Source: Synechococcus sp. BIOS-E4-1 (GTDB lineage Bacteria > Cyanobacteriota > Cyanobacteriia > PCC-6307 > Cyanobiaceae). Taken from it: DNA of 64,000 bases. Position 1 is the first letter of the stretch. Each line of letters begins with the position of its first letter. Positions 51,980-57,493 of the stretch are shown one piece after another. A program made the position numbers and the translations under genes. The DNA lies in NCBI RefSeq assembly GCF_014279995.1, contig NZ_CP047935.1, positions 1,881,494-1,945,493 of the forward strand. The letters run 5' to 3'. The notes beneath the pieces are model-generated. The model was given only the letters and a program-made list of their open reading frames with translations. It did no database searches and was not told the DNA's origin.

Positions 51980-54900
51980 TCAAACGCTGAGAACGGCCTC
52001 GTTACGTGCGGTTTGCTGCTTTTCATGCTCGTCGGCGGTGAGTCCATCGGCACCAGGAATCTGAGCTGCCATCTGCTCAAGCCAGCTCTTGATTTCCTCA
52101 AGCTGCTTCTCCATCGGCAACACGCCGAGGCCTCTGGCCATCACCTTGGCAGTCGCACCAGACCCGGCCTGATAGACAAGCCGCCCATGCAGATGCTGCG
52201 GCAACCCCTGGCGTAGCAGTCGGAAAGCAGGCTCTTCCATCGGTGTTTCCAAGGCAATGTTCGGCTTCTCTGGACGGATGCGTGAAAAACCACAACGCTT
52301 GGCCAGAAGCTTCAGATCCATCAGCTGCAGCAGGGACTGAACCGGTCCGGGCAAAGCGCCGTAGCGATCGGCCCAAATCGCTGCAAGCTCAACCAGAGAC
52401 TCGCTTGTGACACACTCTGCTGCCGATCGATAGGCCGCCATCTTCTCGTCGGCATCGGTGATCCAGTCAGCGGGAATGAACGCAGTGACCTGCAGATCCA
52501 CCTGGGTGTCGTCAACCGCAGGGATGTCCTGGCCCTGGATCTCGGCCAGGGATTCCTGAAGCATCTCCATGTAGAGATCGAAACCGATGGCTTCCATCTG
52601 CCCGCTCTGCTGGACGCCCAACAGATTTCCAACCCCGCGGATCTCCATATCCCGCATCGCCAGCTGATAACCACTGCCCAGCTGAGCAAATTCCTGAATA
52701 GCCCTCAGTCGCTGCCGTGCCGCCTCACTGAGAGAAGCGTTGCCTGGATAAAACAGCCAGGCATGGGCCTGAATGCCACTGCGACCAACACGTCCCCTCA
52801 ACTGATAGAGCTGCGCCAGACCGAATCGATGCGCATCCTCGATCAGGATTGTGTTGACTCTGGGGATGTCGAGCCCGCTTTCCACGATCGTGGTGCAAAG
52901 CATCACATCAGCTTCTCCGCCGTTGAAAGCCACCATGGCGCTCTCCAGCTCGCCCTCGGCCATCTGTCCGTGCGCCACGAGCAGGCGCAGGCCTGGAAGC
53001 ATCTGACGCAGCTGACCAGCCACCTCTTCAATACCCTCAACTCTCGGGACCACGTAAAACACCTGCCCACCGCGATCGAGCTCCTGACGGATGGCACTGC
53101 GAACCGCCTCTTCATCAAGAGAGGCCAGATGGGTCTTGATCGGTCGGCGCAACGGCGGAGGCGTGGTGATCAGACTCATCTCCCGCACTCCCGACAGACT
53201 CATGTAGAGCGTGCGTGGAATCGGCGTCGCTGAAAGAGTGAGCACGTCAACGTCCTTGCGCAACGCTTTGATCTTTTCCTTCTGGTTGACACCGAAGCGC
53301 TGTTCCTCATCCACCACCAGCAAGCCGAGCTTGTCGAACACCGTGCTCTTGCTGAGCAGCTGATGGGTTCCCACAACCGCGTCGATGGTTCCATTCTTGA
53401 GACCTTCAAGAATCGATTTGCGCTCGCTGGTGGTCCGGAAACGATTGAGCAGGGCCACCTTGATCGGATAAGGGGCAAAACGCTCCGAGAGTGTGCGCCA
53501 GTGCTGCTGCGCAAGCACTGTTGTGGGAGCCAACATCGCCACCTGCTTCCCCGCCGTGATCGCCTTGAAAATGGCTCGAATCGCCACCTCGGTTTTACCG
53601 AAACCCACATCACCGCAAACCAGACGATCCATCGGTTGAGATTTCTCCATATCCCGCTTCACATCAGCTGTGGCCTTGAGCTGATCCGGGGTCGGTTCGT
53701 AGGGGAATGACTCCTCCAGCTCGTTCTGCCAGGGGCCATCAACAGGAAACGCGAACCCAGGCGCCTGATGTCGCTCGGCATAGAGCTTCACCAGGTCGAG
53801 CGCCACCTTGCGCAAGGCCTTTCCAGCACGCTCCTTGGCCTTGACCCAAGCCGATCCCCCCATTTTGCTGAGCTGGGGTGGAGCATCACTGTTGGCGCGA
53901 TAACGACCGAGGCTGCCCAGCTGGTCTGCCGCCACCCGCAGGATGCCGTCGGCGTACTGCACCACCAGGTAGTCACGCACCTCGCCACTGATCGCCAGCT
54001 TCTCCAGCTTCTGGAAACGACCGATACCGTGATTGCGATGCACCACGAAATCCCCGGGCTGCATCTTGTTGGGATCCACCGTGCGGCTGGCCGCCTTGCG
54101 GCGGCGGCGCACATAACCAGTGCTGGTCAGCGTCTGCTGTCCGAAAAACTCGCGGTCCGTGATGAGCACGACACGCCAGGCAGGCAACTGCAAACCCTCG
54201 AGATCCGCGGTACCACGCGTTTTCAAAGCAACAGGTGTTCCCTGTTCGATCAGACGCTCAATCGCTGGAGCGTCGGCGGCATTGGGAACGAAGCGACTGA
54301 TGCAGTCGTGCTCTTCCAGCAGCGCAACAGCTCGGCTCGGCTGGGCCGACAGCAACCAGACCGCCTGTTTCTCCTTGACGTAGCTCTTGATCAGTTCACC
54401 AAGCTTTCCGAACTGGTTGGGATAAGCCGGCACAGGCCGGCTGTTGAGATCAAAGGCGTTGGCATGGTCATCGCTTTCCTGCAGCTCGGCCAGATCAAAC
54501 CCGGTGAAAGCTTCGGCCAGACCCATCGCCTCCTCAATGTCGCGATGCAGGGGCGGCAACGATAGTGCCAGCTCGTCGTAATGCTCCCTGGCATGGTCGA
54601 GCCACTGGTCTCCATGGGAGCGGCCATGGCGTCGCTCATCGATCGCCACGCAGCTATCGGCCGGGAGGTAGTCGAGCAGTGAGGCGGGCTGCTTCCAGGC
54701 CAGACCAAGCAGACGGCGCATTCCCTCGGGCGTACCTCCCTCCAGTAATTCAGAAAAACAGTCCTCACTGAGAAGCTGATCAAGGCCATCGGGCATGGCA
54801 TCGCGCAGCTGTTCAGCGATCAAGGGACTGAATCCTGTCGGCGTCAGCCTCAGGCTCTCGATCGGATCGAGGGAACGCTGGCTGGCGGGATCGAATTCAC

Positions 54901-55522
54901 GCAGCTTGTCGAGCTCATCGCCAAAGAACTCCAGACGCACCGGCAGCTCACTGCTGACAGGAAACACATCAACGATGTCGCCACGGCGGCTCCAGGTGCC
55001 TTCCTGATCGATGGTTGAAACCCGCTCATAACCAAGCTGGGCCAGGCTGGTGGCTAACGCCTCCAGATCAATGCTGTCGCCCTTGCGCAGGGTTTGACAT
55101 CGATCAGACAAGGCCTGCGGCGGTGGCAGATGCGGCTGAAGACAGCGCTCTGTGGCCACAATCGCCAGATCACGGTTCTGCTGATCCAGCTGCAATTCAC
55201 TGAGCACCTGCAACTGCCCCCAGGTGATTTCACTGGTGGGATCAAACGGTTCATAGGGCGAACCTTCACTGGTGGGATAGAGCTGGGCACTGCGCCAGCC
55301 CATCAGCTCCAGCAGAGCCGTCCAGCGCCCCGCCTCCTCGAGAGTCGGCACGACCACAAGCAGAGGCCTGTCCTGGTGCCGCGCCAGGGCACTGGCCACA
55401 AGAGCCCTGGCTCCTCGACCGCCTCCGCGGAGCAGGAGCCGGTCGGAGCGATCGATGCGTTCACCGAGCTCACAGGTCAGCGCTGAACATTGCAGCAGGC
55501 GCACCAGGGAGCTGAGGGGCAT
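51980..55522 (-). CDS. mfd: transcription-repair coupling factor
   Basis: An 1180-residue DNA translocase that removes stalled RNA polymerase and recruits UvrA to lesions. In order: UvrB-like N-terminal module, CarD-type RNA polymerase-interacting domain (PGDFVVHRNHGIGRFQKLEK), and the RecG-like motor with Walker A GDVGFGKTEVA, DEEQRFGV, LSATPIPRTLYMS and the LYQLRGRVGRSG motif, then the C-terminal TRCF domain. ATG at 55522 is preferred over the frame's extension to 55570. Monocistronic by appearance. Confidence 0.96.
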   Translation of the reverse strand: MPLSSLVRLLQCSALTCELGERIDRSDRLLLRGGGRGARALVASALARHQDRPLLVVVPTLEEAGRWTALLELMGWRSAQLYPTSEGSPYEPFDPTSEITWGQLQVLSELQLDQQNRDLAIVATERCLQPHLPPPQALSDRCQTLRKGDSIDLEALATSLAQLGYERVSTIDQEGTWSRRGDIVDVFPVSSELPVRLEFFGDELDKLREFDPASQRSLDPIESLRLTPTGFSPLIAEQLRDAMPDGLDQLLSEDCFSELLEGGTPEGMRRLLGLAWKQPASLLDYLPADSCVAIDERRHGRSHGDQWLDHAREHYDELALSLPPLHRDIEEAMGLAEAFTGFDLAELQESDDHANAFDLNSRPVPAYPNQFGKLGELIKSYVKEKQAVWLLSAQPSRAVALLEEHDCISRFVPNAADAPAIERLIEQGTPVALKTRGTADLEGLQLPAWRVVLITDREFFGQQTLTSTGYVRRRRKAASRTVDPNKMQPGDFVVHRNHGIGRFQKLEKLAISGEVRDYLVVQYADGILRVAADQLGSLGRYRANSDAPPQLSKMGGSAWVKAKERAGKALRKVALDLVKLYAERHQAPGFAFPVDGPWQNELEESFPYEPTPDQLKATADVKRDMEKSQPMDRLVCGDVGFGKTEVAIRAIFKAITAGKQVAMLAPTTVLAQQHWRTLSERFAPYPIKVALLNRFRTTSERKSILEGLKNGTIDAVVGTHQLLSKSTVFDKLGLLVVDEEQRFGVNQKEKIKALRKDVDVLTLSATPIPRTLYMSLSGVREMSLITTPPPLRRPIKTHLASLDEEAVRSAIRQELDRGGQVFYVVPRVEGIEEVAGQLRQMLPGLRLLVAHGQMAEGELESAMVAFNGGEADVMLCTTIVESGLDIPRVNTILIEDAHRFGLAQLYQLRGRVGRSGIQAHAWLFYPGNASLSEAARQRLRAIQEFAQLGSGYQLAMRDMEIRGVGNLLGVQQSGQMEAIGFDLYMEMLQESLAEIQGQDIPAVDDTQVDLQVTAFIPADWITDADEKMAAYRSAAECVTSESLVELAAIWADRYGALPGPVQSLLQLMDLKLLAKRCGFSRIRPEKPNIALETPMEEPAFRLLRQGLPQHLHGRLVYQAGSGATAKVMARGLGVLPMEKQLEEIKSWLEQMAAQIPGADGLTADEHEKQQTARNEAVLSV

Positions 55523-55732
55523 GGCGAGACCACTGACGGCAGCGCATGATTCTGTCAAGAGCACCGGCATGACTGCAATGTGCTACGGGTTTGCTTTGTC
55601 TTTGTCTGGATGCTTTGCCTGGTTTTAGGGGCTCTCGTGGATGGGTATTTGGTCCTTTCGTGGGATGTGAATCACCTGCCTCTGATGCGATGAATAGGGG
55701 ACCCACCTGCAACGGTTGACTAGGTGCAACTG

Positions 55733-55879
55733 ATGAAACGCCTTGCACTCATCGCTGCCGTTGCTCTCATAACAGCAGGAATGACACCAACGGCTCTTGT
55801 CGTTGCAGAACTGCTTGAAGATTTCTCAATTAAATGCAGAAATTGCGTCATCCCTCTACAGAGCGATGACGCCTCCTAA
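55733..55879 (+). CDS. putative secreted 48-residue CxxC peptide
   Basis: A complete short frame from ATG 55733 to TAA 55879. A Sec-like signal (LALIAAVALITAGMTPTALV) leaves a mature chain of about 24 residues with KCRNCVIPLQSDDAS at the end. The CxxC might be redox-active or bind metal. It lies at the upstream edge of the AT-richer islet. No family recognised and its expression is unproven. Confidence 0.4.
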   Translation: MKRLALIAAVALITAGMTPTALVVAELLEDFSIKCRNCVIPLQSDDAS

Positions 55880-55967
55880 TTAACAATGCGATCTTGGATG
55901 ATTTATTGCGCTGGCAGGAGCTCGGTGAGTTGGCCACAAAGATCACTTGCTGCGGGCATGCATTGTT

Positions 55968-56246
55968 TTAAACACACGCTACCAATTGACTCTCGGTATG
56001 CAGTGGATGACATGGGACGCCTCCTTTTGTGTCAGTCACTTTTCCACCTGCAATAGCTTCTAATTCTTGATCAGATAATTCCAACATTTGATTTTTATGG
56101 GCGTTGCACAAATCTTTTCCGTCAATTTTAAAACCAGCTTTTTCAGCAATTTCAGTAGCTTCCTCAAGTGTCGTTGCCGACATGATTGCATCACGCAACT
56201 CAGAATTTGAATCAAGAGCGACTAACAGGTCATCGATAGCAGGCAT
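55968..56246 (-). CDS. Nif11-type RiPP precursor peptide (prochlorosin-like)
   Basis: A 92-residue peptide with a Nif11-like leader (IDDLLVALDSNSELRDAIMS, then EIAEKAGFKIDGKDLCNA) and LSDQELEAIAGG, the double-Gly cleavage site typical of Nif11/nitrile hydratase leader families. The core, residues 69-92 (KVTDTKGGVP, CHPLHTESQL, VACV), holds Thr71, Thr73, Cys79, Thr84, Ser86 and Cys91, so Thr/Ser lie upstream of each Cys as in two-ring lanthipeptides. No synthetase, protease or transporter is in the window; prochlorosin precursors are known to lie away from their ProcM enzyme. The ATG at 56246 is 8 bases from a divergent start. It sits in an AT-richer patch. Confidence 0.85.
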   Translation of the reverse strand: MPAIDDLLVALDSNSELRDAIMSATTLEEATEIAEKAGFKIDGKDLCNAHKNQMLELSDQELEAIAGGKVTDTKGGVPCHPLHTESQLVACV

Positions 56247-56254
56247 GAGGAGTA

Positions 56255-56479
56255 TTGAACGTTTTTTCGACTCTATACAGAAAGGTATTCCAATGCAAAC
56301 CTGCTGATACAGATGCAGCTAATCAGGCTTCGGGTCACTACGCAGGCTCGCGACCACAAGAAGTTTTCAGCACTCAGTTGGCGACACTGAACAGCCTGGT
56401 CGCCAAAAACGAAATAGCGTTGCAGCAACGACAAGCCGATCCTGCAATCGCCACAAGGAAAAACGATGACAGGCAGTGA
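56255..56479 (+). CDS. hypothetical small protein, 74 aa
   Basis: A TTG-started frame with LYRKVFQCKPADTDAANQAS, then HYAGSRPQEVFSTQLATLNS and a Lys/Gln/Ala-rich end (KNEIALQQRQADPAIATRKN). The sequence looks coding and may be a conserved picocyanobacterial small protein, but I cannot name it. It is divergent from the Nif11 gene with only 8 bases between starts. A GAGGAG lies unusually close to the TTG. The 195 bases after it show nothing. Confidence 0.5.
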   Translation: MNVFSTLYRKVFQCKPADTDAANQASGHYAGSRPQEVFSTQLATLNSLVAKNEIALQQRQADPAIATRKNDDRQ

Positions 56480-56674
56480 AGAGAGGGACGAGACAATAAC
56501 AAGTATGTGGGCACTATCTATGCCAATACCTGTGTATATGTACTTAGATACAGCTGTACAATTTACTGATCAGCAGTGATGTGAATAGATCTACCTGGCC
56601 TTTGCCTTTCAATAGCTGACAATTGTCGCAATCCATTGATCGCCACTGCGTGAATTCCGACGCGCTCTTCGGCC

Positions 56675-56914
56675 ATGCCTCGATTCCGCTGCCCTGATTG
56701 CTGTTGTGGTCCAGCGGTCGTGCTGCGCCCACCCAAAGGAGCCCTGCCAGTGTGCTCCCGTTGCGGCACCGTGATGGAACGGCAGCCACTGGTCAAGCCC
56801 ATTCCTCTGGCTGTTTTTCTGGCCGTGAGCTCAGCCCTTTTGGGACTCTCCATACCAGCGCTTCTGGGACCGCCACCTCCACCAAGACCTCCGACATCGG
56901 AGAACCTCGCTTAG
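56675..56914 (+). CDS. zinc-ribbon protein with one membrane span, 79 aa
   Basis: Two Cys pairs form a zinc-ribbon: RFRCPDCCCGPAVVL and LPVCSRCGTVMERQ. A hydrophobic segment follows (LAVFLAVSSALLGLSIPALL) and then a run of Pro (GPPPPPRPP). This layout suggests a small membrane-anchored zinc protein with the ribbon facing the cytosol. Function unknown. It precedes the YqhA-like gene by 42 bases. Confidence 0.7.
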   Translation: MPRFRCPDCCCGPAVVLRPPKGALPVCSRCGTVMERQPLVKPIPLAVFLAVSSALLGLSIPALLGPPPPPRPPTSENLA

Positions 56915-56956: not shown

Positions 56957-57493
56957 ATGAACAAGCAGAGCATGAACCGATCGAGACGACTGGAACGCAG
57001 GTTTGAAGGGCTGATCTGGAAGTTCCGGCTGGTCACGCTGATTCCCGTGCTGATGAGTCTGCTTGGGAGCATCAGCTGTTTTGTCATCGGGACCTACGCA
57101 GAGATCAGCGTTCTACAAAAAGTCTTTCGAGGTGACTTCACCCATGACAACAGCACGCTGCTGATCGGAAAGGTGGTGGGAGGCATCGACTACTACCTGA
57201 TCGGCATTGCCCTGCTGATCTTCGGCTACGGCATCTACGAGCTGGTGATCTCCGACATCGACCCGAGACAGAACGATGCATCGACTTCAAGACGCAACCT
57301 GCTCAACATCCAAGATCTCGATGGGCTGAAACAGAAGCTCACCAAGGTGATCATCGTTGCCCTGATCGTGACGGCGTTCAAGGTGATGGTGAGCTTTGAG
57401 GTGACCACAATCACCGAACTGATTCAGTACTGCGCAGGTGTGCTGATGTTGGCGTTCAGTTCCTATCTGATCGGGCGCACCGGCAAACACTGA
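56957..57493 (+). CDS. YqhA/UPF0114 family membrane protein
   Basis: A 178-residue protein with three or four membrane spans (LVTLIPVLMSLLGSISCFVI; DYYLIGIALLIFGYGIYELV; KVIIVALIVTAFKVMVSFEV; and a last one). The ISDIDP loop and ISVLQKV block are typical of the UPF0114 family, which is of unknown function. It is followed about 100 bases later by the sigma-factor gene. Confidence 0.85.
   Translation: MNKQSMNRSRRLERRFEGLIWKFRLVTLIPVLMSLLGSISCFVIGTYAEISVLQKVFRGDFTHDNSTLLIGKVVGGIDYYLIGIALLIFGYGIYELVISDIDPRQNDASTSRRNLLNIQDLDGLKQKLTKVIIVALIVTAFKVMVSFEVTTITELIQYCAGVLMLAFSSYLIGRTGKH

Follow-up and report, generated by a model that had tools for sequence, protein, structure and literature searches.

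Prochlorosins serve as the textbook case of a single enzyme that processes many cores. Precursors of the prochlorosin type have a leader with the N-terminus -MS/TEEQL-, a CCG motif marks the ProcM-like enzymes, and ProcM-type enzymes accept many substrates, as described in PMC10783134. The same source suggests that lanthipeptide genes in this group are mobile, based on recombination-related genes found nearby and a cited association with transposases, and it describes a YcaO cluster with NHLP-like precursors in Synechococcus BIOS-E4-1 and UW179A (PMC10783134). In the nostolysamide system, a Nif11 leader is cleaved at Gly-Gly and Lys1 of the core is acylated by a tandem GNAT (NpuN); the related GNAT clusters contain Nif11 or NHLP precursors, and a LanM is not always encoded (PMC13060382, preprint). 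The phaeornamide cluster is composed of an NHLP precursor, a LanM, an Fe/2OG hydroxylase, a GNAT, a PCAT and an arginase (PMC9505594).

Here, we consider a precursor gene found in a 64,000-nucleotide stretch of DNA (referred to as the window) from the marine Synechococcus sp. BIOS-E4-1 (clade CRD1), i.e., C1:1881494-1945493 of a 3.31-Mb single-contig genome, which is the largest among the 31 searched of the genus and for which assembly gaps in repeat genes have been reported (PMC7522525). One repeat-protein ORF contains a run of unread residues, which may be such a gap. The initial annotation described the gene as an orphan Nif11-type precursor with a two-Cys core. Upon re-reading, its coordinates, strand, length, leader end LSDQELEAIAGG, 24-residue core KVTDTKGGVPCHPLHTESQLVACV and Thr, Ser and Cys positions were all correct (Table 1).

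Table 1. Features of the precursor gene and of its surroundings (window positions)
Feature	Position	Strand	Remarks
Precursor ORF, Nif11-type leader and core	55968-56246	minus	92 aa
Leader, residues 1-68, MPAIDDLL...LSDQELEAIAGG	56043-56246	minus	from sequence; five helices predicted (AlphaFold)
Core, residues 69-92, KVTDTKGGVPCHPLHTESQLVACV	55971-56042	minus	Lys1 followed by residues that differ between paralogues; Cys11 and Cys23 (core numbering)
Insert, 1,070 bp, between the mfd-like and UPF0114 genes	55552-56621		ATT on both sides
Left 69 bp of the insert	55552-55620		shared (76-77%) with the longer inserts that G016 and G025 carry here
48-aa ORF, signal-like N-terminus (by eye)	55733-55879	plus	relatives in G019 and G009 interrupted by stops
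mfd-like gene, left neighbour	51980-55570	minus	first listed codons (55552-55570) inside the insert
UPF0114 (PF03350), right neighbour	56957-57493	plus	anchor for finding the homologous site

The claim of a Nif11-type leader ending in Gly-Gly is supported by two profiles, TIGR03798 leader_Nif11 (NCBIfam; 47.8 bits, cut-off 32.3) and PF07862 Nif11 (Pfam; 28.0 bits, cut-off 23.8), both matched above cut-off, i.e., the leader does match the Nif11 profiles against which the annotation proposed to check it. TIGR03793, the NHLP leader profile, does not appear among the profile matches of the window protein at E values up to 1. The Gly-Gly pair is found at residues 67-68, and the leader end, DQELEAIAGG, agrees with the motif D/EELExxxGG except for a Q replacing the first E. 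In an AlphaFold model obtained with a 14-row alignment (mean pLDDT 62.5), the leader is composed of five helices; residues 1-53 are of moderate confidence, while residues 54-92 have pLDDT <50. The dN/dS of the window leader is 0.13 and 0.11 relative to its two nearest paralogues, and the values range from 0.06 to 0.38 over the listed leader pairs with a finite value; purifying selection acts on the leaders, at a dN/dS of about 0.1. The profile matches and the leader dN/dS show that the open reading frame is more than a chance ORF.

The gene is an orphan in its neighbourhood, which is ordinary for prochlorosin-type genes (PMC10783134). All LANC matches (two in the genome) and C39 matches (three in the genome) lie outside the window, in agreement with the earlier statement that it holds no lanthipeptide synthetase or C39 transporter. 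The genome-wide search that the annotation had proposed as a check identified two LanM-type proteins (C1:496472-499792 and C1:2202991-2206374), both with the CCG motif (LCCG), and two PCATs with the catalytic-Cys motif ECGAASL, recognized by eye (C1:961662-963905 and C1:2208530-2210722); lack of a synthetase anywhere in the genome can therefore not be held against the annotation. A PCAT adjoins the LanM at C1:2202991-2206374, together with HlyD- and TolC-like genes (the latter two named by eye), and a second PCAT set, without LanM, is found at C1:957808-965335. A third C39-like protein (C1:186869-188974) is without the catalytic Cys, and the genome encodes two YcaO proteins. Next to the LanM at C1:496472-499792, in the region C1:499789-500676, are a Nif11 precursor of unusual type (500407) and, at 499838, an ORF that is more weakly Nif11-like.

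The repertoire of Nif11-type sequences in this genome is large. The Nif11 profile gave at least 150 matches (all 150 of the candidates scored, out of 281 found). With our own leader HMM, 239 Nif11-type ORFs were found in ~0.54 Mb of selected stretches and the window; 227 of these remained at E<=1e-8 after removal of duplicates, and 198 had complete leaders when 29 incomplete ones were dropped. The stretches were picked for Nif11 matches, and the genome contains at least 198 complete leaders.

A search of the genome with the window protein alone returned the query and 13 others down to an E value of 7.7e-13, after which the next value was 7.3e-8 (scores were obtained for 150 of the 186 candidates). 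An HMM built from these 14 leaders gives 106-120 bits for its own members, as expected by construction, and at most 48 bits for the other Nif11 ORFs compared. Judged from their sequences, the 14 leaders belong to a subfamily distinct from the prochlorosin/synechococsin leaders that this genome also encodes, and the subfamily is lineage-restricted. Core position 1 is Lys in 13 of the 14 members and in 9 of the 184 other complete leaders (Fisher p 9e-14, uncorrected for kinship), and a Lys is found among the first three core residues in 14/14 and 14/184, respectively. Variability starts at core position 2. Both Lys codons are used at position 1 (AAA in six cases and AAG in seven), which indicates that the residue is kept rather than the DNA. 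The constant feature of the subfamily is Lys1, not a pattern of Cys, Ser and Thr.

With the leader alignment, the subfamily was found at E<=1e-17 in two of 400 sampled genomes of the family, i.e., the window genome (at least 14 members) and G028 (at least two, one with a core that begins with Lys and the other with Gln-Lys). At 1e-15 it was found in one of 386 sampled genomes of the phylum, the window's own, where G028 is outside that sample. Both searches scored at most 15 candidates per genome and used an alignment in which one of the 14 query rows had a mistyped N-terminus. A single-protein scan of genome contigs for the precursor elsewhere yielded 137 pattern-matching stretches, none of which was confirmed, and the leader alignment yielded 293 stretches in viral contigs, again with none confirmed; tblastn against phages and plasmids gave no relative of the precursor. 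A description of the Lys1 leader group was not found in the searched literature, which excludes most subscription journals. The strings AIDDL, EDLL, ELEAIAGG and IAGGK are all absent from the main text of PMC10783134, the supplementary tables of which may list such precursors.

The surroundings of other members of the subfamily were also noted. The paralogues near C1:1347749 and 1730943 are located between a ProcA-type array and what is apparently the same set of small genes, and a tyrosine-integrase-like ORF (by eye) is found near the member around C1:1347749. The Nif11 arrays around C1:948974 and 1269447 adjoin phage-like genes (terminase-like and nuclease-like, by eye). Paralogue 1020544, which is among the two nearest to the window gene, is immediately followed downstream by a 2,411-aa ORF (L072:9446-16681) that matches no family above cut-off.

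The annotation interpreted the core as that of a two-ring class II lanthipeptide. According to this interpretation, a ProcM-like LanM would dehydrate Thr and Ser, rings would be formed to core Cys11 and Cys23, and a PCAT would cut after Gly-Gly. The CCG-type LanMs of the genome, one of them beside a PCAT, and the promiscuity of ProcM-type enzymes (PMC10783134) are consistent with such a route. Both genomes that harbor the subfamily also have a LanM, but LanM is found in 12 of the 31 genomes of the genus, so this co-occurrence (2/2) says little. A simple two-ring pattern, defined as an own upstream Ser/Thr for each Cys and non-overlapping rings (overlapping or reversed rings are outside this definition), is present in the window core, and it is also present in 30.7% of 20,000 shuffles of the same core. 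Of the 52 two-Cys cores of the ProcA-like kind, 14 pass where 9.3 are expected, so that even there the pattern has little value as a guide. By this measure, the two-ring pattern in the window core does not stand out from chance.

The Cys content bears on the same question. Cys makes up 3.5% of the residues (14/401) in the 14 subfamily cores and 11.9% (418/3,502) in 172 high-scoring ProcA-like cores, a comparison that leaves out 12 other complete, low-scoring leaders; in 104 large ORFs the value is 1.2%. Two or more Cys are found in 133 of the 172 ProcA-like cores, as compared to 4 of the 14 subfamily cores, where six have one Cys and four have none. The subfamily cores are hypervariable, poor in Cys and rich in Pro, Gly, Asn and Thr. 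The excess over the large ORFs favors a lanthipeptide, as does a sister core in which the motif CxIDCG is kept between the two genomes (THRHTACVIDCG in paralogue 1264848 and THAHTRCEIDCG in G028; 0/2,000 shuffles were as good), i.e., at least that Cys pair is kept. The string QLVAC, common to the window core and that of paralogue 948992, is shared in 1.2% of shuffles for this pair and in 8% for any pair among the 14, and it is for the latter reason not counted as evidence. With the ring pattern seen in 31% of shuffles, a leader outside the ProcA/SyncA type and ten of the 14 cores holding fewer than two Cys, we consider the two-ring product possible but unlikely. The placement of Thr, Ser and Cys that was originally noted is real and the general class is right; a two-ring lanthipeptide is one among several options.

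The explanation that we favor, tentatively and at slightly less than an even chance, is a PCAT-exported precursor that is matured in trans, with Lys1 as the constant handle and rings as optional. The Nif11 leader would be recognized in trans by a C39-peptidase exporter, either the PCAT at C1:961662-963905 or that at C1:2208530-2210722, and cleavage after Gly68 would release a 24-residue peptide with an N-terminal Lys. Lys1 would be seen by a maturation step, for which modification of the side chain as in nostolysamides/selidamides is the likeliest candidate, and thioether rings would be an optional extra for those cores that bear Cys. Export, cleavage and any modification are steps that we infer. 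We propose that the constant Lys1 and the optional Cys would agree better with the nostolysamide scheme than with a dedicated two-ring scheme. Against maturation at Lys1, common descent or the C39 peptidase, and not a modifying enzyme, may be what preserves the residue, and the Cys pair of the sister core that is conserved between genomes speaks for a role of Cys.

A further point against maturation at Lys1 is that no GNAT was identified in the gene neighbourhoods considered, with none seen beside the window gene. A candidate RiPP locus is found at C1:806887-814520, where two subfamily precursors (C1:811586 and 814245) flank a 310-aa protein (C1:812108-813040), the one unassigned neighbour of subfamily members that was considered. 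The locus, referred to below as the 811-kb locus, also contains oxygenases of the Asp/Asn-hydroxylase type and the TIGR02466 type, a TPP enzyme and an amine oxidase, as well as a third 2OG candidate that scores below cut-off; LanM is not among the neighbours of its precursors. In its model, the 310-aa protein has a succession of strands and helices that looks GNAT-like, but comparison with Pfam, NCBIfam, PDB sequences and plasmids gave no match for the protein, and a GNAT is absent among the 50 matches listed in a fold search with this model, where a pLDDT of 36.7 means that the fold search carries no meaning; no assignment as a GNAT is made on this basis. The TIGR02466-type oxygenase has some relative in 20 of the 31 genomes (~28-33% identity outside the window genome), but no match in G028 at 1e-5, even though G028 has two members of the subfamily. 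As far as this oxygenase shows, G028 does not share the 811-kb locus, the sole candidate biosynthetic locus, which would then be no common pathway of the subfamily but at most a partner of its two neighbouring precursors; this also weakens the favored explanation.

The peptide may instead be secreted unmodified as a bacteriocin- or signal-like peptide with a Gly-Gly leader, where LanM and other maturases would be inactive on the window precursor. The Cys-poor, Pro/Gly/Asn/Thr-rich cores would fit this possibility, as would the PCAT without a neighbouring LanM at C1:961662, the set of which starts at a distance of ~9 kb from both paralogue 948992 and a Nif11 array. Paralogue 1269531 is above the cut-off of the TIGR01847 bacteriocin-signal profile (16.7 vs 15.7 bits) and paralogue 1264848 is just under that of a cerein-type leader (21.4 vs 21.5 bits), while the window protein reaches neither. 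Long Nif11 leaders typically belong to modified RiPPs, which counts against an unmodified product, and the constancy of Lys1 would be unexplained unless the peptidase requires this residue. We regard secretion of the unmodified peptide as rather improbable.

The precursor gene is found in an insert at a precisely defined site. The UPF0114 gene is present in 25 of the 31 genomes of the genus, the window genome included, and the site was compared in 18 of the 24 others. An exact empty site, GCATGATT^GTCGCAAT, is found in 10 of these 18 genomes (G028, G013, G008, G017, G030, G023, G010, G012, G002 and G022), which implies that one precursor gene was gained or lost as a unit. In G016 and G025 longer inserts with different cargo occupy the same site. 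Among the six remaining loci, those of G004, G020 and G007 are near-empty in appearance, a few hundred bases at the site do not align in G024 and G006, and in G005 the right side only is aligned. Several more distant relatives are empty, so the simpler reading would be an empty ancestor and gain of the window gene as an insert, where loss is the alternative; we infer this direction from the distribution of empty sites. In terms of the favored explanation, the gene would have come to this place within a strain-specific insert of 1.07 kb, at a site where the cargo differs between strains.

The cargo of the longer inserts includes an RTX-like ORF (223 aa) at the same site in both G016 (C15:20500-27000) and G025 (C1:1082500-1088500). 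The G016 ORF scores 17.7 bits with TIGR03661 (cut-off 17.6), and that of G025 is 92% alike over that part. The site in G025 also harbors an ORF with a Gly-Gly leader (SIQELAVATGG; sub-threshold CCRG-2 match, 13.1 vs 24 bits), an observation that would favor a secreted unmodified peptide. Pieces of the window insert outside the precursor resemble DNA in stretches of G021, G025 and G016 that also contain Nif11-like sequences, and the insert looks as if it had been cut from Nif11-rich DNA.

Compared with its own genome, the insert matched, besides itself, the leader of paralogue 1020544 only (14 of 28 candidates scored). The known leader match at 1283745 was missed by this search, so further copies of the insert may exist. 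No second copy of the insert ends was found among the 14 candidates scored. The sequences TGTCA/TGACA near the ends and the flanking ATT are suggestive of a transposon, but no transposase was seen among the ORFs of the insert, and these features are not counted as proof of one. A second empty site was sought via the nth-like neighbour of paralogue 1020544. Of 587 loci, the 80 best (59-80% identity; Cyanobium-type, Synechococcus and Prochlorococcus contigs among them) included none that was judged close. The left neighbour, which looks mfd-like from its sequence, probably has an internal true start because the first codons of the listed ORF are inside the insert. The 48-aa ORF is probably no functional gene, given the stops in its G019 and G009 relatives.

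Alternatively, the inserted copy may be a relic, now functionless. No sigma-70-like site was found in 55552-56700 (0, where 1.6 are expected by chance), and the rest of the insert is debris-like, with the relatives of its small ORF interrupted. The open frame of the precursor is, however, intact, and its leader has the low dN/dS given above (0.11-0.13 to the nearest paralogues), even if that may mostly reflect selection before the insertion. We consider a relic highly improbable.

Three points are new, i.e., that the Lys1 leaders form a separate subfamily, that this subfamily was found in no more than two of the searched genomes, and that the insertion is exact and strain-specific. A separate leader group that has a constant residue of its own and is poor in Cys, residing in the same cell as the prochlorosin-type precursors, suggests a second set of peptides that is sorted by its leader to another fate. 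In a more far-reaching version, which we think decidedly improbable as a whole, this prochlorosin super-producer would hold a second peptide library, where one trans-acting maturase modifies Lys1 (e.g., by acylation) in 14 or more hypervariable cores with Nif11 leaders, rings being unneeded, and where single members pass from strain to strain as small inserts at an exchange site with varying exported-peptide and RTX-like cargo.

With the prochlorosins and synechococsins (ProcA, SyncA; ProcM, SyncM), the window gene has in common a Nif11 leader ending in E-L-E-x-x-x-G-G, a hypervariable core, precursor genes dispersed at a great distance from the synthetase, and a CCG LanM and PCAT in the genome (as far as described in PMC10783134). 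It differs from these in its MPAIDDLL N-terminus, its separate leader group, the Cys-poor cores and the kept Lys1. A set of TOMM/NHLP precursors beside YcaO is found at C1:1542900-1551153 (precursors by eye), but their leader is of the NHLP type while that of the window gene is Nif11. The 2OG oxygenases beside the two subfamily precursors of the 811-kb locus recall the phaeornamide cluster (as described in PMC9505594), from which this locus differs in having no neighbouring LanM and another type of precursor leader. The nostolysamides and selidamides (NpuA, NpuM, NpuN) are here compared by description, not by sequence: NpuA has four Cys and is clustered with its own LanM and GNAT, in contrast to the window gene without an adjoining GNAT, while both are cyanobacterial and have a Nif11 leader, Gly-Gly and a core Lys1, i.e., the position that is acylated in the nostolysamides (PMC13060382).
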